Below, piece by piece: positions 12,940-46,203 of a stretch of DNA of 64,000 nt. Position 1 is the first letter of the stretch. Every line of letters starts with the position of its first letter. Origin of the DNA: an uncultured Pelagibacteraceae bacterium (GTDB lineage Bacteria > Pseudomonadota > Alphaproteobacteria > Pelagibacterales > Pelagibacteraceae). A program made the position numbers and the translations under genes. Location: contig CACBBX010000001.1 in NCBI GenBank assembly GCA_902537575.1, forward strand, positions 1 through 64,000, written 5' to 3'. A model generated the notes under the pieces. That model was not told where the DNA came from and searched no databases. It saw only the letters and a program-made list of their open reading frames with translations.

Positions 12940-15009
12940 ATGTCTGAGTTTTTTTTAGAACTATTTAGTGAGGAAATACCTGCGGGTCTTCAAAAAAATT
13001 TAAGGGAGAAATTATTGAAATCTTTTAATGATTTCTTTGAAGGGAAACTTATTTCATTTAAAAAAAGTTTTTCCTATTCAACCCCAAATAGATTGATAAT
13101 ATTATTTGAAGGGGTTCAAAAACAAGTAGTTCTTAAATCTGAGGAAATTAAAGGTCCCAGTACAAAAGCTCCTGAATTAGCTATCGAGGGCTTTATACGA
13201 TCAAATAAAATTTTAAAACAAAATCTTTATGAAAAGGAAACAGAAAAAGGTAACTTTTTCTTCTTTAAAACAAAATCAAAAAAACTTTATACCCATGAAT
13301 TATTAGAAGAGTTTGTTCCAAAAATATTAGACAGAATTCAATGGACAAAATCAATGCGTTGGGGTGATTTTAGTATGCAGTGGGGCAGACCATTGAAATC
13401 TATTTTGGCAATATTTAATAAAAAGACGCTAATTTTTCAATTTCATCATATTCGATCATCTAATTTAACTTTTATAGATAAAGATTTTGAGGAAAAAAGA
13501 AAAAAGTTTTCTGATTTTAAAGAATATAAAAATTTCTTTAAAAAGGAACAAGTAATAATTGATCAAGCTGAAAGAAAAAAAATTATTGAGAAAAAATTTA
13601 ATTTACTTTTAAAAAAGAAAAATATTACTATAGAGCAAAATCCAAAGCTATTGGAAGAAGTTGTTGATTTAATAGATCAACCCAATGTTATTGTTTGCCA
13701 GTTTGATAAAAAATTTTTAAAAATACCTAAAGAGATTCTAATAATCACAATGCAGCATCATCAAAAATATTTCCCCACTTTTGATAATAAGGGAAATATA
13801 ACAAATGAATTTTTAGTTGTATCAAACAAAAAAGATCAAAAAGGATTAATTAAGATAGGTAACGAGAGAGTAGTAGAAGCAAGACTTACAGATGCAGAAT
13901 TCTTCTGGCAAAAAGATAAATCTCAAAACTTAGTAAAACAAGTCTCAAGTTTAAAGTCTATGAATTATTTTAAAGGATTAGGAAGTTATTACGATAAAGT
14001 TCAAAGAATGAGAAAGCTTGGAGGAATGCTTTCAGATGAGCTTTTAATAAGCAAAGAAAAAGTAGAGTTATCAGCCTCAATTTCTAAAGTTGATTTATTA
14101 TCAGAAATGGTAGGTGAGTTTCCTGAGCTTCAAGGGATTATGGGTGGTTATTTTTCTGAGGCACAAGGTTTTGACAAGGATGTAGCACTATCAATAAGTG
14201 AACAATATTTACCTTCAGGGTCTGGGTCAAAGGTTCCCAAAAAACCTTTTAGTATAGCATTAGCTTTATCAGACAAAATAGATACCCTTGTAGGTTTTTT
14301 TGGAATTAATCAAAAGCCAACAAGCTCTAAAGATCCATTTGCTCTTAGAAGATTAACTTTAGGAGTAATAAGAATAATTGTCGAAAATAAAAATTATATT
14401 AAAATTAGAGATTTGATTAACTATTCAGCTTCTCTTTATATGGATCAAGGCTTCAAATTTGAAAACCAATTTCTTCAAAAAGAACTTTCTGAATTTCTAA
14501 TTGACCGACTAAAATTCTATATGAAAGAAGAAAATATTCGAAATGATATTATCCAAGCATCTATAAGTTCACATAATTTAGATCAAATTGTGATAATTTT
14601 TGAAAAGGCAAAATATTTAGACAAAATAATTTCTAAATCAAACGGACACGATATAATATCAAGCTACAAAAGAGCCTCAAACATCTTGGAAAGTGAGTTG
14701 AGAGGACAAAATTTTGATCTTTCTAATACAACTGACCCTGGTGTTTTCAAGACAGATTTTGAAAAAAATTTGTTTAAAAAAATAAATGAATTAAGAAAAT
14801 ATTTTTCTTCAATTAATAAAGATGAAGTTTATTCCGAAACTTTAGATAACTTATTAGATGCCAAAAAAGTAATTAACGATTTTTTTGACAACGTAATAGT
14901 TAATGATGTTGATCCAGGTATTCGAAAAAATAGACTAGAACTTCTTCAAATCTTATGTAAAACCTTTAATAACTATGTTAATTTTTCTCTAGTAGACTCC
15001 CAAAAATGA
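12940..15009 (+). CDS. glyS: Glycyl-tRNA synthetase beta subunit
   Basis: LLELFSEEIPAGLQ-type start, MQHHQKYFPTFD, VVEARLTDAEFFWQKD; follows glyQ. Confidence 0.97.
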   Translation: MSEFFLELFSEEIPAGLQKNLREKLLKSFNDFFEGKLISFKKSFSYSTPNRLIILFEGVQKQVVLKSEEIKGPSTKAPELAIEGFIRSNKILKQNLYEKETEKGNFFFFKTKSKKLYTHELLEEFVPKILDRIQWTKSMRWGDFSMQWGRPLKSILAIFNKKTLIFQFHHIRSSNLTFIDKDFEEKRKKFSDFKEYKNFFKKEQVIIDQAERKKIIEKKFNLLLKKKNITIEQNPKLLEEVVDLIDQPNVIVCQFDKKFLKIPKEILIITMQHHQKYFPTFDNKGNITNEFLVVSNKKDQKGLIKIGNERVVEARLTDAEFFWQKDKSQNLVKQVSSLKSMNYFKGLGSYYDKVQRMRKLGGMLSDELLISKEKVELSASISKVDLLSEMVGEFPELQGIMGGYFSEAQGFDKDVALSISEQYLPSGSGSKVPKKPFSIALALSDKIDTLVGFFGINQKPTSSKDPFALRRLTLGVIRIIVENKNYIKIRDLINYSASLYMDQGFKFENQFLQKELSEFLIDRLKFYMKEENIRNDIIQASISSHNLDQIVIIFEKAKYLDKIISKSNGHDIISSYKRASNILESELRGQNFDLSNTTDPGVFKTDFEKNLFKKINELRKYFSSINKDEVYSETLDNLLDAKKVINDFFDNVIVNDVDPGIRKNRLELLQILCKTFNNYVNFSLVDSQK

Positions 15010-17663
15010 AAAAACTAATTTTAAATTTCAAATCTAAAGATAGTAAAAAAATTAAAATCCCAAAAAATTTTTTGGGTGGAAAAGGTGCAAATCTTTCTGA
15101 AATGGGTCGAATGGGATTACCTGTTCCACCTGGATTTACTATTTCAACGAAAGTATGTGATTTATTTTATAAAGATAAAAAAAAACTTAATAAAAGTATA
15201 ATCACATCAATTAAAAAAGAACTAAAGGCTATTGAGAAGGAAGTTTCAAAAAAATTTGGTGATTTAAAAAATCCATTATTACTTTCAGTTAGATCTGGAG
15301 CTAGAGTTTCTATGCCTGGTATGATGGATACAATTTTAAATTTAGGGTTAAACGATAAAACTGTTAAGGCTCTAGCGTCAAAAACCTTTAATGGTCGATT
15401 TGCCAAAGATAGCTATAGAAGGTTTATTCAAATGTATGGCAATGTAGTAATGGGCGTTGAAGGGTATCATTTTGAGGAATTAATTGAGAATTACAAACTT
15501 ACGAAAGGTGTTTTATTAGATACTGATTTAGATGAAAAAGATTGGGATGGACTTATTGAAGATTTTAAAAGAACAGTTAAGGAAAAAGCAAATAGAGATT
15601 TTCCACAAGATGTTCATGAACAGTTATTGGGAGCAATTAGTGCAGTATTTCTGTCTTGGGATAGCAAGAGAGCAAAAGTTTATAGAAAATTAAATCATAT
15701 ACCTGCTGAGTGGGGTACAGCAGTTAATGTTCAATCAATGGTTTTTGGAAATATGGGAGATGACTGTGCAACTGGAGTTGTTTTCACAAGAAATCCATCA
15801 GATGGTTTAAACGAAATTTATGGAGAATATTTAATAAATGCACAAGGGGAAGACGTTGTAGCTGGCACAAGAACACCACAATACATAACAAAAAAAGCAA
15901 GAAAAAATGCAAAAGTTAAAGCTCTATCAATGGAAGAGTCTATGCCTAAAGTTTATAAACAACTTTATAAGATCCTAAAAAAATTAGAAAAGCATTACAA
16001 AGACATGCAAGATGTAGAGTTTACAGTTGAAAACAAAAAGTTATGGATGCTTCAAACACGTTCTGGAAAAAGAACTGCAAAATCTGCCGTCAAAATTGCA
16101 GTTGACATGGTTAAAGAAAAATTAATTTCAAAAAAAGAGGCTGTGTTAAGAATTGATCCAAATTCACTTGATACACTTCTCCATCCAACTCTAGATGAAA
16201 AAAGTTCGATTAATGTTATTGCAAATGGCTTGCCTGCATCACCAGGTGCTGCGAGCGGTAAAGTTGTATTTACATCTGAAGAAGCAGAAAGGCTGACATC
16301 AATGATGCAGGACGCAATTTTAGTTAGAATAGAAACTTCTCCTGAGGATATACAAGGTATGCATGCAGCAAAAGGAATATTAACTGCAAGAGGTGGGATG
16401 ACAAGTCATGCTGCTGTTGTAGCAAGAGGGATGGGAAGGCCCTGCGTTTCAGGATCAAGTGAAATTGATATAAATTATGAAAATAAGTCTTTTAAAACAT
16501 CGAAAGTCGAAATTAAAGAGGGAGATATAATAACGATTGATGGCTCAACAGGAAGAATAATTGAAGGTAGCGTTGATACTGTAAAGCCAGAAATATCTGG
16601 TGATTTTTCTAAATTAATGAATTGGGCTGATAATTATCGAAAATTAAATATTCGAACAAATTCAGAAACTTCAAAAGATACAAAAATCGCAAAAGATTTT
16701 GGCGCTGAGGGTATTGGACTTTGTAGAACTGAGCACATGTTTTTTGATGAAGAGAGAATTTTATCTGTCAGAGAAATGATTCTATCTAAAACTAAAGAGG
16801 ACAGAGCTAAAGCTTTAGATAAACTTTTACCACATCAAAAAAAAGACTTTACTGAAATTTTTAAGATTATGAATGGCTTACCAGTTACAGTGAGATTATT
16901 GGATCCTCCTCTGCATGAATTTTTACCAAAAACAAATAAAGAAATTAGTGAATTAGCAGAAACTGCTAATATTTCTAAAAAAGAGGTTGAAACAAGGATT
17001 GAGGAGCTTCACGAACACAATCCAATGCTAGGTCACAGAGGTTGCAGGTTAGCAATATCATTCCCTGAAATATATGAGATGCAATGTAGAGCAATTTTTG
17101 AAGCATTATGTGAACTTAAAAAAAATAAAATTAATTCAGCTTTTCCTGAAATAATGATTCCATTAGTTTCTACAGAGGCTGAAATTAAAATAATGAAAGA
17201 TTTAGTTAAAAGAATAGCAAGTAAAGTTCAAAAGGAAAATAAATTAAAAATAGACTTTATGGTTGGAACAATGATTGAGCTTCCAAGAGCAGCTATAAAG
17301 GCAAAAGAGATAGCAAAACACGCAGAATTTTTTAGTTTTGGAACAAATGATTTAACCCAAACAACCTTTGGAATAAGCAGAGATGATAGTGGAAAATTTT
17401 TAAATGATTACTTGGAAAATAAAATATTTTCTATTGATCCTTTTGTATCAATTGATGAAGGTGTTTCAGATTTAGTTGAGATTGCCGTTGCAAAAGGACA
17501 GAGCCAAAATAAAAATATAAAACTAGGGATTTGTGGTGAGCACGGTGGTGATCCCAAAAGTATTTCTTTTTGTGTAAAAGCAGGACTTAATTATGTGTCT
17601 TGTTCCCCTTATAGAGTACCAGTTGCAAGATTAGCTGCAGCACAAGCAGAGTTAAAAAAATAA
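15006..17663 (+). CDS. ppdK: Pyruvate, phosphate dikinase
   Basis: 885 aa; GGKGANLSEMGRMGLPVPPGFTIST, GGMTSHAAVVARGMGRPCVSG, GTNDLTQTTFG. Confidence 0.98.
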   Translation: MKKLILNFKSKDSKKIKIPKNFLGGKGANLSEMGRMGLPVPPGFTISTKVCDLFYKDKKKLNKSIITSIKKELKAIEKEVSKKFGDLKNPLLLSVRSGARVSMPGMMDTILNLGLNDKTVKALASKTFNGRFAKDSYRRFIQMYGNVVMGVEGYHFEELIENYKLTKGVLLDTDLDEKDWDGLIEDFKRTVKEKANRDFPQDVHEQLLGAISAVFLSWDSKRAKVYRKLNHIPAEWGTAVNVQSMVFGNMGDDCATGVVFTRNPSDGLNEIYGEYLINAQGEDVVAGTRTPQYITKKARKNAKVKALSMEESMPKVYKQLYKILKKLEKHYKDMQDVEFTVENKKLWMLQTRSGKRTAKSAVKIAVDMVKEKLISKKEAVLRIDPNSLDTLLHPTLDEKSSINVIANGLPASPGAASGKVVFTSEEAERLTSMMQDAILVRIETSPEDIQGMHAAKGILTARGGMTSHAAVVARGMGRPCVSGSSEIDINYENKSFKTSKVEIKEGDIITIDGSTGRIIEGSVDTVKPEISGDFSKLMNWADNYRKLNIRTNSETSKDTKIAKDFGAEGIGLCRTEHMFFDEERILSVREMILSKTKEDRAKALDKLLPHQKKDFTEIFKIMNGLPVTVRLLDPPLHEFLPKTNKEISELAETANISKKEVETRIEELHEHNPMLGHRGCRLAISFPEIYEMQCRAIFEALCELKKNKINSAFPEIMIPLVSTEAEIKIMKDLVKRIASKVQKENKLKIDFMVGTMIELPRAAIKAKEIAKHAEFFSFGTNDLTQTTFGISRDDSGKFLNDYLENKIFSIDPFVSIDEGVSDLVEIAVAKGQSQNKNIKLGICGEHGGDPKSISFCVKAGLNYVSCSPYRVPVARLAAAQAELKK

Positions 17664-17673
17664 TTATTTTAAT

Positions 17674-17700
17674 TAGGAGGCTTTTTGTTGCCAGGTGCCC
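17674..17700 (-). repeat. Remnant/duplicate of the tmRNA 3' end (left copy of island-flanking direct repeat)
   Basis: Ungapped 24/27 match to 21328-21354, including the exact 15-mer TGTTGCCAGGTGCCC (17686-17700 and 21340-21354). Confidence 0.8.
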
Positions 17701-17998
17701 AAATCATGTTTTGAGAATAATCATTAAACATTATAACATTTAAAGTCTAGTATATCTGGGTTTCTAGCTCAAGGTGTGGAAACAAAGTATGTACGTGATG
17801 AGACAGATAAGAGTAAGAATTGATTCGACTAAGGTGTTATGTCTTTTGACCATACCTATAATCCCTAGAAGGATCCTAAAAAATAGCAAATAACAATAGT
17901 TTATTGATCAAATTAAAGTAAAGTGAAAATTTAAATTCCAATTGAAATGAAAAAAAATAATCTTTTTTTAGTTATTGTGTTAAATTTGATTAATTTAA

Positions 17999-19324
17999 AT
18001 GAAAATAACAATTATAGGTTTTGGTTACATTGGCTCTGTAATAGGAGCAGTTTTATCAAATAGAGGACATAAGGTTACTGCAATTGACAATAATAAAAAT
18101 TGTATCGATGAACTTAATAATGGAGTTTGTCATGTTCCAGAACCATTATTAAAAGAAATGATTTCAGAGTCTGTTAAATCTGGACTTCTTAGTGGATCGA
18201 TCTCTTATAAAGATGTTGGTACTAGTGATGTTATCTTAGTAACAGTTGGCACTTCTCTTTCTGATGAGAATGATGCAGATTTAACCGCGTTACATGATGT
18301 TTTTAAAAATCTATCCAATTATGTTAATGAGGGTCAAGTTATAATGATTAAGAGTACAGTTCCTCCTGGAGTTACAAGACTTTTAGTTAATAAGCATTTA
18401 GGTTCAAAAGATAATATTTTTGTTGGATTTTCTCCAGAAAGATTAGCTGAAGGAGATGCCATTAAAGAGCTTAAGGAATTACCAATAATTGTTGGTGGTA
18501 TTAATGATGCTAGTACTGAAAAATGTTCTAATTTCTGGGTTAAAGCGCTTGGCTCAGAAGTCATAACAGTCTCAAGTTGTGAGGCAGCAGAATTAGTAAA
18601 ATTGGCAAATAATCAATGGATAGATTTAAATATTGCACTAGCAAATGAGCTAGCTATTTTATGTGACTCTCTTCCATATAATATTGATATTCTTGAAATA
18701 ATAAGAGCAGCCAATTCATTGAAAAAAGGTCAACATTTTGTAAACTTTTTAACACCCTCTATAGGAGTAGGAGGATATTGTTTAACAAAAGACCCCTGGT
18801 TCGTTTCAACACTTGGAGAAAAAAATCATAGATCATTGCAATTACCTAGTGCTGGAAGATCTGTAAACGATAGCATGCCCCATTACTGTGCTAATAGAAT
18901 TATTAATAAATTGGGTCTTAATGGTATAAAAATAGAAGATGTTAAAGTTGCTATATTAGGCTACTCATTTAAAACTAATTCTGGTGATACTAGATTTTCT
19001 CCCATGATAACATTTGCTAAGCTTCTAATAGATCAAGGCTGTAATCAAATTACATTTTTTGACTCTACTATTGGATATAATGAACAAATTCAGGATCAAT
19101 TATTAAGAGTACACTCATGGCAGGAGTGTGTTAAAAAAGCTGACGTTGTAGTATTTGGGGCAGCTCATGATGATATAAAATCGATCAAAATTGATGATCT
19201 TAAAGAATTAATTAGTAAAAATGCTATAGTTTTTGATGGAAGACGTTTTTTTAACAAAAAAGAAATTGATATTATAAAAAAATTAGGACTAAATTATATG
19301 GGAGTTGGCCGCACATTTGGCTGA
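17999..19324 (+). CDS. Nucleotide-sugar (UDP-glucose/UDP-ManNAc-type) dehydrogenase
   Basis: MKITIIGFGYIGSVIGAVLSNRGH Rossmann motif, STVPPGVTR, GVGGYCLTKDPWF catalytic Cys motif. Confidence 0.93.
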   Translation: MKITIIGFGYIGSVIGAVLSNRGHKVTAIDNNKNCIDELNNGVCHVPEPLLKEMISESVKSGLLSGSISYKDVGTSDVILVTVGTSLSDENDADLTALHDVFKNLSNYVNEGQVIMIKSTVPPGVTRLLVNKHLGSKDNIFVGFSPERLAEGDAIKELKELPIIVGGINDASTEKCSNFWVKALGSEVITVSSCEAAELVKLANNQWIDLNIALANELAILCDSLPYNIDILEIIRAANSLKKGQHFVNFLTPSIGVGGYCLTKDPWFVSTLGEKNHRSLQLPSAGRSVNDSMPHYCANRIINKLGLNGIKIEDVKVAILGYSFKTNSGDTRFSPMITFAKLLIDQGCNQITFFDSTIGYNEQIQDQLLRVHSWQECVKKADVVVFGAAHDDIKSIKIDDLKELISKNAIVFDGRRFFNKKEIDIIKKLGLNYMGVGRTFG

Positions 19325-19357
19325 TTTTTCAATTTAAATAATCATAGGTACTTTGTT

Positions 19358-20347
19358 ATGAAAAAGAAAATAATGGTCACTGGCGTTGCTGGTTTAATAG
19401 GAAGTCATTTAGTTGAAAAACTATTAAAACTTAACCACGAAGTTTACGGTTTTGACGTAGTTGATATAAATTTTAATAGAAATTTAGAAAACATAAAAAA
19501 TCATGAAAATTTTATATATTTTAAGGGTGATGTTAGATCCTCTGAAGATCTAAACTTATTTTTCCAAAGTGACGCATCTGTTCTGTACCATTTGGCATCT
19601 GTGGTGGGTGTCAATAAATATATGGAAGACCCTTTGAGTTTAATTGATATTGGCATATCAGGAACTAGAAACTTAATTAATATGTGCAACAAACATAATG
19701 TTAGAATGTTATTTACATCTACTTCAGAGGTTTATGGCAAGAACTCAAATATTCCTTGGTTAGAAAATGGGGATAGAGTTTTGGGTCCTACAAATATTGA
19801 TAGGTGGTCTTATTCAACATCAAAAGCTTTATGTGAGCATATGTTGTTTGGTATGCACCATAAGAATAATTGGCCAATGTCTATAGTAAGATTTTTTAAT
19901 GTTTATGGTCCACGACAGAACCCAATTTATGTAGTTTCTAAATCAATACACCGTGTTTTAAATGGCATATCCCCAGAATTATACGATGGTGGTAATCAGA
20001 CTAGATGCTTTACATATATAGATGATGTGATTGATGGGCTTATACTTGCTGCCACTCTAGAGTCAGCCGTTGGAAATGTTATAAATCTTGGAAATACAAT
20101 TGAAAATACTGTGAGAGAGGTAGTTAACACAATTTTGAAAGCATCTAATTCAAACCTTAAAATAACTCATATTAAAACAAAAGAAAGATATGGAAATGTC
20201 TATGAGGATATTCCCAGACGTGTACCATCAATTGATAAGGCTTTTAGTTTGCTTGGTTGGAAGCCTGCAACAAGTATGGAGGAAGGTGTTAAAAAAACAA
20301 TTGATTGGGCAAAGAAAAACGATTGGTACTTAGACTTAAATAAATGA
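19358..20347 (+). CDS. NAD-dependent epimerase/dehydratase (SDR extended)
   Basis: VTGVAGLIGSHLVEKLL, YSTSKALCE (YxxxK), VRFFNVYGPRQ. Confidence 0.93.
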   Translation: MKKKIMVTGVAGLIGSHLVEKLLKLNHEVYGFDVVDINFNRNLENIKNHENFIYFKGDVRSSEDLNLFFQSDASVLYHLASVVGVNKYMEDPLSLIDIGISGTRNLINMCNKHNVRMLFTSTSEVYGKNSNIPWLENGDRVLGPTNIDRWSYSTSKALCEHMLFGMHHKNNWPMSIVRFFNVYGPRQNPIYVVSKSIHRVLNGISPELYDGGNQTRCFTYIDDVIDGLILAATLESAVGNVINLGNTIENTVREVVNTILKASNSNLKITHIKTKERYGNVYEDIPRRVPSIDKAFSLLGWKPATSMEEGVKKTIDWAKKNDWYLDLNK

Positions 20348-20386
20348 TAGAAATATAATTAGCTCAAAAAACTAGTATTATTTTAA

Positions 20387-21034
20387 ATGACTGCTGAAAA
20401 ACATTATGATCAAAAATATTTTGGATGGCAAAAAAATGTTGGTATTTTTGGAGCAAAAGCAAATCAAATAAAATTTGAAAAACTAATTTCAGATAATTTA
20501 AAAGTTTTGGACTTTGGGTGTGGGGGTGGTTATTTATTAAATGAATTTAAATGTGAAATAGAAAAACATGGTGTTGAAATAAATGAAGTTGCTAGACGTC
20601 AAGCAATCGAGAATGGTTTAAAGTGCTATAAATCGTCAAAAGAGTTACCTTCTGATTATTTTGATTTAATTATATCCAATAATGCTCTTGAACATTGTGA
20701 AAACCCTTTTGTAGAATTAAATGAATTGTATAGGGCACTAAAAAAAAATGGTAAGATTTGTATAGTAGTACCTTTAGATAGTTTGAATTATAAATATGAA
20801 AGTGATGATATAAACTTTCATTTATATTCTTGGTCACCAATGAACTTAGGAAATATTTTAAAGGCGAGTAATTTTGAAGTAATTACTTCGAAACCCTTTA
20901 TTCATAAATGGTTTCCATTCTACAAAACTGTAAAAAAAATTATACCTTGGTGGTTGTTCCATCTTTTATGTTTTATTTATGGAAGATTAAATAGAAAATG
21001 GTTTCAAACTAGAGCTGTGGCAATTAAAAAATAA
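20387..21034 (+). CDS. Class I SAM-dependent methyltransferase
   Basis: KVLDFGCGGGYLLNEF motif I, LIISNNALEHCENP. Confidence 0.88.
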   Translation: MTAEKHYDQKYFGWQKNVGIFGAKANQIKFEKLISDNLKVLDFGCGGGYLLNEFKCEIEKHGVEINEVARRQAIENGLKCYKSSKELPSDYFDLIISNNALEHCENPFVELNELYRALKKNGKICIVVPLDSLNYKYESDDINFHLYSWSPMNLGNILKASNFEVITSKPFIHKWFPFYKTVKKIIPWWLFHLLCFIYGRLNRKWFQTRAVAIKK

Positions 21035-21330
21035 TTTTTTGTATTTAGCTTAACTCTCTACTCAACATATCGTTTATAAAGTTTTCAAACGTATTTAATA
21101 TTTATTTCATAGCTTCATTGGCGTTGACCTTAAATTAATCAATCGTATATTTGTTAATTTTGTAATTTACTCTCCTCTAATGTATCTTTAATTATTTAGT
21201 CTTTGAGTACATTTAATAGTAAATCTTTTTTAGACCTCTCCAGTGTCTTATTTCTGTTTTCTGACTTCATTACAACTTGATTGAGGTTTTAAAAAAAAAA
21301 TATTAAAAAATAAGGGATAATTGTTTATAG

Positions 21331-21588
21331 GGGGCGTTCTGTTGCCAGGTGCCCCGGACCCCGTTTGCTTAATTAAACAAGTTAATTAGGCAGCAAGTGC
21401 GTAACTTTCGTTAGCAATTATAAATTAGCCCGTTACGGTGGAACAATTCCGAACGAAAGAATAGCTTTTAGTCACCCGTCGAATCTAGTTCACCCCCATA
21501 AGTTGTAATGGTGGAGGTGGTGGGTACTGCCCCCACGTCCGCAATGGTTATTACGAAATTCGTTTATCGTCGTAGTTGGAAAACCAAC
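21331..21588 (-). ncRNA. ssrA: Transfer-messenger RNA, circularly permuted two-piece type (coding piece about 21331-21497; acceptor piece 3' CCA at 21509, 5' end approximate)
   Basis: Minus strand: acceptor-piece T-stem GTGGG-GGCAGTA-CCCAC, then CACCTCC-ACCA, an 11-nt spacer, then GGGGGTGAACTAGATTCGACGGGT. GGGGGTG pairs with CACCTCC with a G3:U70 wobble. Tag ORF GCT AAC GAA AGT TAC GCA CTT GCT GCC TAA (ANESYALAA*) at 21386-21415. Terminal GGGGC/GCCCC hairpin near 21331-21355. Confidence 0.95.
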
Positions 21589-21594
21589 ATTATT

Positions 21595-21622
21595 AATATA
21601 AAAGGAATTGCAATAGATTCAA
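21595..21622 (-). promoter_or_regulatory. Putative tmRNA promoter
   Basis: Minus strand TTGAAT (21622-21617), 16-bp spacer, TATATT (21600-21595), upstream of the acceptor piece. Confidence 0.5.
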
Positions 21623-21630
21623 TAACAATC

Positions 21631-22578
21631 ATGAAACTTACCAAAGAACAAGAAAAAGAAATAAAAAATCAACAATCTCAAAGTAATCAAACGAAAAGAG
21701 TCACTGTACCAGATCTTGAAAATATTCTTTATGAAGCAATTCCAGCTTTAGATCATGGTTTTGTTCGAGTGGTGGATTATATGGGTGATGATACTTCAAT
21801 TGTTCAATCAGCAAGAGTTTCTTATGGAAAAGGGACAAAACAAGTTTCAACTGATAAAGGATTGATCAAATACTTAATGAGGCATTGGCATAGCACTCCA
21901 TTTGAGATGTGTGAAATAAAATACCATATAAAGTTACCAATATTTATTGCTCGACAGTGGATTAGACATAGAACTGCTAATGTCAATGAATATTCTGCAA
22001 GATATTCTATTTTAGATAAAGAATTTTATTTACCTACTCAAGAAAACTTAGCTGCTCAATCTTCTAGCAACAGACAAGGTAGAGGAGATGTTTTAGAAGG
22101 AAAACAAGCAGAGGAAGTTTTAGAACTTTTAAAAAGTGATGCTGAGAGAACTTATGATAATTATGAAACGATGCTTAATGAAAGGTTTGATGGCTCAACT
22201 ATCGATGAAAATAAAAAAGGCTTAGCTAGAGAACTTGCAAGAATGAATTTGACTTTAAATACCTATACCCAATGGTATTGGAAAACTGATCTTCTAAACC
22301 TAATGAATTTTTTAAGATTAAGAGCAGATAGTCACGCTCAATATGAAATTAGAGTGTATGCAGATATCATGATGGGCACAGTTAAGAAATGGGTTCCAAT
22401 AACTTACGATGCATTTATGGATTATAGAGTTGGAGGTACTGAAGTTTCAGCTAAAGGAAAAGTGATTATTCAAAAACTTATTAAAGGTGAAAATGTTGAT
22501 GTAAAAAGTTCAGGACTTTCTAAAAGAGAATGGAATGAGTTAATGGAAGCTTTTGAATTAAAAGAAAAGAAAATCTAA
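21631..22578 (+). CDS. thyX: Flavin-dependent thymidylate synthase
   Basis: [19 protein letters not shown] (ThyX RHRxxSxNExSxRY-type motif). Track start at 21508 reads through the tmRNA acceptor piece; ATG at 21631 (MKLTKEQEK) preferred. Confidence 0.96.
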
Positions 22579-29039: not shown

Positions 29040-29948
29040 ATGGATTTTAAATCCAAAGTTATTTTAGTTTCAGGACCAACTGCCTCAGGTAAATCTAATT
29101 TTGCAGTTAAACTTGCTAAAAAAATAAATGGAGAGGTAATTAATGCAGATAGTATGCAAGTTTATAAACAATTAAAAATTTTATCTGCACGACCAAATCT
29201 AAAAGATTATCAAAAAATAAGACATCATTTATATGGATTTCATGATGTAAAAAAAAATTTCTCAACAGGTAAATGGTTAAAATTAGTAATAAAAAAAATT
29301 AAAGAAATAAAAAAAAGAAAACAAACTCCAATCTTAGTAGGAGGTACAGGTTTGTATTTTAAAGTATTAACTAATGGATTGGTAAAAATCCCAAATATAC
29401 CTATAAAAATTAGAAACCAGATAAGATCTAAACAATCAAAAATAGGTCAAAGCAGGTTTTATAAAAAACTTTTAAAACTTGATCCAAATTCTAAAAATAA
29501 AATTAATCCAACTGATACGCATAGATCTATAAGAGCTTATGAAGTTAAATTTTATACCCAAAAATCAATTCATGAATGGTACAAAAATACTAAATCAAAT
29601 TTCAAAAAAAACGACTTTTTTAAAATCTATATTGATTTCCCTCGAAGTGAATTGATTAAAAGAATTAATCTTAGATCTCAGCAAATGATTGAAAAAGGAG
29701 CAATTAAAGAAGTAAAAAATTTCATTAAATTAAAAGTCAGAAAAGATAAAAGCGCTAATAAGGCAATTGGTATCAATGAAATCAGACAATACTTGAATAA
29801 TGAAAAAGAAATTCAGGAGATTATTGAAAATATAGCAATAAAAACTAGACAATACGCTAAAAGACAAACTACCTGGGCAAGAGGCAACATGAATTCTTGG
29901 TTTAAATTGAAACCAAATGAGTTAAATAATTTTTTAAAAAAAATTTAA
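29040..29948 (+). CDS. miaA: tRNA dimethylallyltransferase
   Basis: VSGPTASGKSNFAVKLA, INADSMQVYKQLKILSARP, VGGTGLYFK. Confidence 0.96.
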   Translation: MDFKSKVILVSGPTASGKSNFAVKLAKKINGEVINADSMQVYKQLKILSARPNLKDYQKIRHHLYGFHDVKKNFSTGKWLKLVIKKIKEIKKRKQTPILVGGTGLYFKVLTNGLVKIPNIPIKIRNQIRSKQSKIGQSRFYKKLLKLDPNSKNKINPTDTHRSIRAYEVKFYTQKSIHEWYKNTKSNFKKNDFFKIYIDFPRSELIKRINLRSQQMIEKGAIKEVKNFIKLKVRKDKSANKAIGINEIRQYLNNEKEIQEIIENIAIKTRQYAKRQTTWARGNMNSWFKLKPNELNNFLKKI

Positions 29949-45473: not shown

Positions 45474-45535
45474 AAACCCTTTATAATTGAAATAAAAATT
45501 TAATGCATTTTTTTTAGTCTCTGATAATATGATTT

Positions 45536-45584
45536 AGATAGTCCTTCTTAGCCATCTTTAGCTCCCGGTTTTTAAGGACTATCT
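45536..45584 (+). promoter_or_regulatory. Leader hairpin directly upstream of LysE-family gene
   Basis: Perfect 11-bp inverted repeat AGATAGTCCTT (45536-45546) / AAGGACTATCT (45574-45584), 27-nt loop, 4 nt before the ATG. Confidence 0.6.
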
Positions 45585-45588
45585 TAAA

Positions 45589-46203
45589 ATGTTCCCCCTA
45601 AATTATTTTTTATTTCTTCAAATAATTCTTTTTTTATTCATTACACCTGGACCACCAAGAATTGTCATTGTTTCATATTCTATGAATTATGGAGTTAAAA
45701 AATGTGTTTGGACTGCACTTGGAGATATTACTGCAAATATTATACAAGCCACTTTAGTAATTTTTGTTATAGGATCTTTTTTTTCTGAAAATCCAAATTT
45801 TTTAAATATATTTAAATGGATAGGTGTAGCTTATATTTTATATTTAGCATTTGATATTTATAATTCTAGACCTAAAGAAATTAGTTCGAGTAAAAATTTA
45901 TCAAAAAGTTTTTTTTCTTTTTTTAAAGATGGATTTTTGGTTGCTGGAACTAGTCCAAAGGCTTGGATGTTTTTTCCATTAATTTTTCCACAGTTTATTG
46001 ACTTTAATGAAAATTATTTAATCCAATTTTTAATTTTAATCACAACTTATGTTGTTTTAGATTTTTTATCACTTATTGGTTATGCTTTACTAGCACAAAA
46101 GCTTATTGCTTGGATAAATACAAAACCAAGAACTATTAATACAATTTCTGCGAGTGTATTAGTAATTATTGCAATGATTATTGTTGTAACACAACAATAC
46201 TAA
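45589..46203 (+). CDS. LysE/RhtB family translocator
   Basis: LFLFITPGPPRIVIVSYSMNYGVKKCVWTALGDI, six predicted TM segments. Confidence 0.9.
   Translation: MFPLNYFLFLQIILFLFITPGPPRIVIVSYSMNYGVKKCVWTALGDITANIIQATLVIFVIGSFFSENPNFLNIFKWIGVAYILYLAFDIYNSRPKEISSSKNLSKSFFSFFKDGFLVAGTSPKAWMFFPLIFPQFIDFNENYLIQFLILITTYVVLDFLSLIGYALLAQKLIAWINTKPRTINTISASVLVIIAMIIVVTQQY

Follow-up and report, generated by a model that had tools for sequence, protein, structure and literature searches.

A direct repeat of the tmRNA 3′ end around a sugar-nucleotide island of Pelagibacteraceae, and its likely place among integrase-less SAR11 cassettes

The direct repeat that flanks a sugar-nucleotide island in the DNA analysed here (a stretch of 64,000 nucleotides from an uncultured Pelagibacteraceae bacterium, hereafter the window) is very likely the pair of junctions left by an integrative element that entered at the tmRNA 3′ end, the island being an old member of a SAR11 system of small cassettes that carry no integrase and are presumably moved in trans. 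The tail end of the tmRNA gene in SAR11 is a docking site with repeated insertion of cassettes bearing sugar, restriction and secreted-protein genes. The window island is a poor and decayed example of them, and the evidence for the system comes mostly from relatives. SAR11 are the commonest bacteria of the ocean and their genomes are streamlined, yet contain hypervariable regions; the tmRNA-anchored cassettes provide a concrete route by which genes for defence, surface sugars and secreted proteins pass into and out of these genomes.

The repeat pair and the island in the window

A sequence-only reading of the window had proposed a pair of attachment sites on the basis of a repeat with an exact 15-mer, and its coordinates and degree of match were reproduced. 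Positions 17674–17700 and 21328–21354 are identical at 24 of 27 bases, with the next best match in the real window reaching 17 of 27, and the 15-mer TGTTGCCAGGTGCCC occurs exactly on the plus strand at 17686–17700 and 21340–21354. If up to three mismatches are allowed, a third copy appears at 29875 on the opposite strand, which is the sole extra match in the window. In each of 200 windows simulated with a first-order Markov model, the best match to the 27 bases of the tmRNA end reached 15–18 of 27, so the pair is not a product of chance. The source assembly (68% complete, 49 contigs) contains two copies of the repeat in total, both belonging to this pair.

The right copy had been assigned to the 3′ end of the tmRNA coding piece, which was borne out by Rfam model RF01849 (222 bits) and by ARAGORN (tag ANESYALAA): a permuted, two-piece alpha-tmRNA gene, the putative integration target, occupies 21327–21626 on the minus strand. 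The proximal copy of the repeat (21328–21354, minus strand, GGGCACCTGGCAACAGAACGCCCCCTA in the sense direction) is the intact 3′ end of its coding piece and would be the junction beside the restored gene. The distal copy (17674–17700, minus strand), located 10 bases past the ppdK stop codon, would be the far-end junction; its right half is decayed (AAAAAGCCTCC). Folding revealed that this copy has lost the tmRNA-type hairpin, and therefore it is not a conserved RNA element at that position.

The island body between the copies (17701–21327, 3.65 kb) carries the expected cargo, all on the plus strand and confirmed by Pfam and TIGRFAM profiles: a nucleotide-sugar dehydrogenase of the UDP-glucose type (17999–19324, 441 aa; PF03721, PF00984 and PF03720, with TIGR03026 above its cut-off), an NAD-dependent nucleotide-sugar epimerase/dehydratase (19358–20347, 329 aa) and a SAM-dependent methyltransferase (20387–21034, 215 aa). 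An ORF and profile search found no integrase or other recombinase between the copies, again as had been read from the letters. Core genes on the plus strand flank the island on both sides, namely ppdK for pyruvate phosphate dikinase (15006–17663, TIGR01828) on the distal side and thyX (21508–22578, TIGR02170) behind the tmRNA gene. The listed thyX ORF overlaps the tmRNA gene, and its true start is probably farther downstream.

Motif M and exchangeable cassettes in SAR11 genomes

In SAR11 genomes the tmRNA 3′ end forms a 25-bp site, GGGGCACCTGGCAACAGAACGCCCC (hereafter M), which bounds cassettes on both sides and recurs as a conserved block at the tmRNA end, after rnhA, pnp and other stop codons, and at the far ends of cassettes. 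The supposition that the tmRNA 3′ end serves as target thus stood in part: it is used, but it is not the sole target, since copies of the motif that follow rnhA, pnp and other genes also serve as such. The sense motif GGCACCTGGCAACAGAACGCC was registered with up to three mismatches in 102 of 121 same-genus genomes, 1–6 copies in each, and a 12-mer from the repeat is present in most same-genus genomes, frequently with two or three same-strand copies inside a few kilobases. In one lineage (G051, G097, G024) the variant CACCGGGTAAC, exact or altered at one base, is found both in the tmRNA gene and in the cassettes. Scanning of the GTDB genome collection with the distal-site pattern AAAGTTYGGGGCACCTGGCAACAGAAC, which preselects one left-end type, yielded 97 stretches, and all titled rows among them belong to Pelagibacteraceae/Pelagibacterales.

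Defining a cassette as the stretch between neighbouring M copies, we obtained 159 distinct cassettes in 101 loci, from 167 to 6291 bp long (median 832 bp), with arrays of at least four cassettes in loci such as L120 and L125. Their cargo ORFs of at least 60 aa (252 in total) fall into 154 clusters, 120 of which are singletons. Among the families are type I, II and III restriction-modification proteins, MrcB-like, SRA and GIY-YIG domains, polysaccharide lyase and glycosyltransferase, together with many small secreted or membrane proteins; the sugar genes of the window fit the surface-sugar part of this repertoire. Judged by eye, some cassette left ends look dif-like.

Whole M-to-M units occupy different chromosomal sites with unrelated flanks. 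A 640-bp cassette is common to locus L052, where it sits inside a tmRNA array, and locus L107, where it lies behind rnhA; the identity (99.56% over 685 bp) runs from M to M, with no homology in the flanks. Two further pairs of loci share cassettes in the same manner, with 97% (L046/L056) and 92% (L094/L167) identity.

Removal of a cassette restores an exact empty site. The rnhA site contains a single M, mostly of the variant ending in GAACTGC, in four loci (L045, L079, L130 and L132), while at the rnhA site of L088 a 670-bp cassette is inserted, its distal M having the chromosomal CTGC and its proximal M the cassette's CGCC. After excision of this cassette in silico by a cut inside M, L088 aligns with L045 without gaps over 1021 bp at 94.9% identity, and the marker base places the crossover inside M. 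Some cassette types diverge from M in its left half and agree with it only from about CAACAGAAC onward. Based on these left-half-divergent types and on the marker bases of L088, the exchange can be placed within or beside AACAGAA. The position profile also peaks at AACAGAA, in a region that the search pattern for M favours, this pattern biasing which positions look invariant.

Arm-type sites, recombinases and competing readings

Both ends of one cassette often carry a common word. A shared word of at least 9 bp was found in 45% of cassettes versus 4.8% of mismatched end pairs, and none of 20000 permutations reached the observed sum. The words are situated mostly 41–73 bp past the proximal M and 68–92 bp ahead of the distal one, and they are tandem repeats of about 10 bp, usually pairs, with an 11-bp period; repeats of period 11 were detected at 45% of left ends (2% in shuffles) and at 30% of right ends (4% in shuffles). 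The words themselves vary between cassettes (TGTACGGGATA, TGTCCGCACTA, TTGGCACAATA, TGTTCGGAATC, TACTCGTCCTG and others), and more than half of the cassettes have no clear arm pair. Judging from the sequences, this geometry of core and arms looks like that of the arm-type sites of lambda-like integrases, i.e. like a lambda-type attP, with such sites on both sides of the core for about 30–45% of cassette ends. By analogy with the lambda family, the words may be bound by the N-terminal part of an integrase. The combination of a fixed core with a changing arm word would make the cassettes a natural collection for studying how the arm specificity of integrases diversifies.

Words of this style accompany tyrosine integrases in SAR11, as follows from two loci. 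In an integrase-bearing element beside a tRNA-Met fragment (L242) the arm layout is the same on another core, the pair TTGTCACAACT–CTGTCACAACG being about 60–80 bp from the tRNA anticodon region and adjoining the integrase start; in the locus of a 509-aa integrase (L251) period-11 arms occur close to the gene, with a second occurrence at a distance of 8.5 kb.

An hmmsearch of 202 M-bearing loci detected no tyrosine recombinase ORF next to M. Searches of phage and IMG/VR collections revealed no integrase element bearing M, giving only viral-contig tmRNA genes and chance matches, a Pfam integrase was absent from the 23 viral contigs checked, and neither these collections nor the sampled genomes yielded a helper element with an M core. 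Since the recombinase gene is not found beside M, we infer mobilisation in trans. The cassette may pass through a circular intermediate, whose attP would consist of the left arm, core M and the right arm. This circle would recombine with any M through a lambda-like tyrosine integrase that has an arm-binding domain, and as recombination of M with M would give two copies of M, the tmRNA and other target genes would keep an intact 3′ end and cassettes would accumulate in tandem. Such an enzyme is presumably supplied by a helper element or phage outside the sampled genomes.

Another candidate for the enzyme is the host's own Cre/XerA-like tyrosine recombinase of 318–325 aa, which is present as one gene in most same-genus genomes and in nearly every genome of Pelagibacteraceae, is kept through the family with 57–100% identity and, in the loci inspected, borders the sugar/LPS variable region. 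Acting on M, it would make the cassettes a native integron-like system. This reading is unlikely, although several observations agree with it. The sister family, which has only distant Xer-like matches (305–325 aa), has a single tmRNA 3′ core in 34 of 35 genomes; tandem M copies are absent in G216 and G224, the two sampled family members lacking the host recombinase; and no serine resolvase was found in 121 same-genus genomes. However, the contrast between the two families is a single phylogenetic event, and the protein may just resolve chromosome dimers in place of XerC/XerD. It also shows only core-binding and catalytic parts, with no evident arm-binding part, and therefore would have nothing to read the cassette-specific arms. 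Its scores are well below the cut-offs for XerC, XerD and integron integrases (27 versus 265 bits for the integron model).

A broader possibility, to be held with low confidence, is a native integron-like cassette economy of SAR11, in which cassettes can dock equally at the tmRNA 3′ end or at any of its dispersed copies, are moved by the family Cre/XerA-like recombinase or by hidden arm-specific integrases, and arm words may serve as a self/non-self code for which enzyme moves which cassette.

For the window alone one can also suppose that the tmRNA end was duplicated locally, independently of any integration, and that the sugar genes were acquired otherwise. The left, ppdK-side cassette end is indeed unrecognisable in the window island: it scored −8.1 against the cassette-end profile, a background level reached by 7% of random positions, the median for other cassettes being 25.8; the distal M is without its canonical right half. 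Against this very improbable duplication, the same tmRNA–ppdK locus in L044 holds a cassette before ppdK bounded by two copies of M, and the window retains an arm relic on the expected side of M. This relic, TAATGAAGTCAGAAAAC (21256–21272, minus strand, inside the island about 60 bp from M), matches the arm block at the right end of the L042 and L237 cassettes exactly over 17 bp.

The sequence-only reading would have been undermined if island-free genomes carried the 15-mer after ppdK. Two relatives have the tmRNA gene near ppdK and no M-bounded island, i.e. L058, from the near-complete single-contig genome G105, and L083; in both of them M is present at the tmRNA gene only, the second M is absent and another small gene lies between tmRNA and ppdK. 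A truly empty tmRNA–ppdK site of the window type was thus not found among close relatives, and in others tRNA-Leu adjoins the tmRNA gene at the corresponding locus. With integration as the preferred origin, the attachment-site pair is supported by the many M-bounded cassettes, by cassettes common to different sites, by the exact empty site and by arm-type sites. In our view the window island is an old, fixed, immobile and degenerate remnant with one tmRNA-side arm relic and a decayed distal M. Probably it is a mosaic formed by fusion of two former elements whose inner M disappeared. The earlier description of it as a remnant or an element mobilised in trans fits the recombinase-free, M-bounded cassettes of relatives.

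The least probable reading takes M for an RNA element of 3′ ends or terminators that has been copied to a number of genes, with cassettes being neighbour genes swapped by homologous recombination between M copies. It is suggested by the fold of M into the tmRNA terminal hairpin and by a subset of loci in which M follows a stop codon by 1–17 nt in the same orientation. It was rejected because, of the 209 cargo genes with a length of 80 aa or more, 183 are antisense to M, which is hence not their terminator, because neither terminators nor RecA working on 25 bp would be expected to produce exact M-to-M transfer without flanks, gap-free empty sites and arms at a fixed distance, and because the window distal copy has no tmRNA-like fold left.

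Relation to known systems

We found no description of tmRNA-anchored cassettes in SAR11 in the open literature searched, which does not prove its absence. The attP sites of lambda-type phages have a short core and tandem arm-type sites on both sides at a fixed distance, as the cassettes do, and also contain IHF sites between core and arms. The cassettes differ in that the arm word changes on one shared core, the integrase is unlinked, and no excess of IHF sites over shuffles was found at the arms.

With integrons the cassettes share arrays of exchangeable short gene units. They are distinguished by the lack of intI and attI, by M being the tmRNA end and not attC, and by a cargo that is about 88% antisense to the site; that they are not integrons rests on the absence of an integrase beside the array, the score of the host recombinase and the identity of the site. 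Wilhelm et al. (2007) described SAR11 hypervariable regions without attC, one of which, HVR2, holds an integrase gene (PMC2217521).

Islands of the Islander type start at the 3′ end of an RNA gene and have a displaced direct fragment of this end on the far side, as observed in the window, but contain an integrase gene, which is lacking in the window island as it is, in the form of a tyrosine recombinase ORF, in the 202 loci. Tycheposons, first named in Prochlorococcus, resemble the cassettes in being cargo carriers that integrate site-specifically next to RNA genes in streamlined marine bacteria. They measure 4–200 kb, sit at tRNA genes and have a tyrosine recombinase (PMC10872708), whereas the SAR11 cassettes are far smaller, have no recombinase, use tmRNA as a target and form tandem arrays.

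The ssrA islands of Dehalococcoides lie in tandem downstream of tmRNA, and each terminates with 20 bp copied from the tmRNA 3′ end; an integration module is missing from 15 of them, which were suggested to be cis-mobilizable, while others encode the large serine recombinase DsiB (PMC3146451). In SAR11 no serine resolvase was found, nor an integrase in any cassette, and arm sites are undescribed in Dehalococcoides.

The closest known kind are additive genomic islands and cis-mobilizable elements at tRNA or tmRNA genes. The SAR11 system keeps both att junctions and has no recombinase, like a CIME, although the window's own distal site is decayed. As in additive flexible islands, strains differ in whether one and the same RNA-gene site is occupied by cassettes, and a direct repeat betrays the insertion. 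Such islands with tRNA direct repeats are known in Ca. Actinomarinales (PMC7771536) and Alteromonas (PMC4119200), and fGI-2 of Ca. Methylopumilus has recurring 20-bp tRNA-Lys ends (PMC10872708). Common to both are small cassettes at an RNA gene of streamlined aquatic bacteria and a direct repeat of its 3′ end, and the Actinomarinales islands also share the envelope-sugar cargo. In SAR11, unlike the additive islands, the target is tmRNA together with copies of its end behind rnhA, pnp and other genes, and precise empty sites, shared cassettes and cassette-specific arms of period 11 are seen.

Permuted tmRNA genes on viral contigs

Permuted tmRNA genes were also registered on the IMG/VR viral contigs L019, L026, L028, L029, L032, L033, L037 and L039, where all of them end (3') in the exact 25-bp tmRNA-end site M and most encode the tag ADENLALAA. 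Viral genes carrying exact M are potential docking sites within phage genomes.

Cargo of the cassettes

Two families of secreted proteins with no assigned role were found repeatedly, in many of the M-to-M cassettes; their clusters comprise 20 members (leader L164:4628–5266) and 18 members (leader L155:959–2740). At L064:1127–5966 a gene pair resembling type I restriction-modification systems is flanked on one side by the M of tmRNA and on the other by a distal M that is degenerate.

Recombinases and other repeated or structured elements

As seen at the tyrosine recombinase loci L252, L253, L254 and L255, Pelagibacteraceae have a single Cre/XerA-like tyrosine recombinase, which adjoins the variable sugar region; in its place, other Xer-like proteins occur in the sister family. 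In one genome of the latter the tmRNA 3' core occurs twice, 326 bp apart (G152:C8:25961 and 26287). In a complete SAR11 genome (L242:7013–10210) a fragment of tRNA-Met, together with the arm sites next to it, is present in two copies inverted relative to each other (127 bp, 99% identity), which enclose an integrase gene and two ORFs. The window itself contains an Rfam match (80 bits) to rhtB sRNA (RF01814) at 45519–45597 (+).
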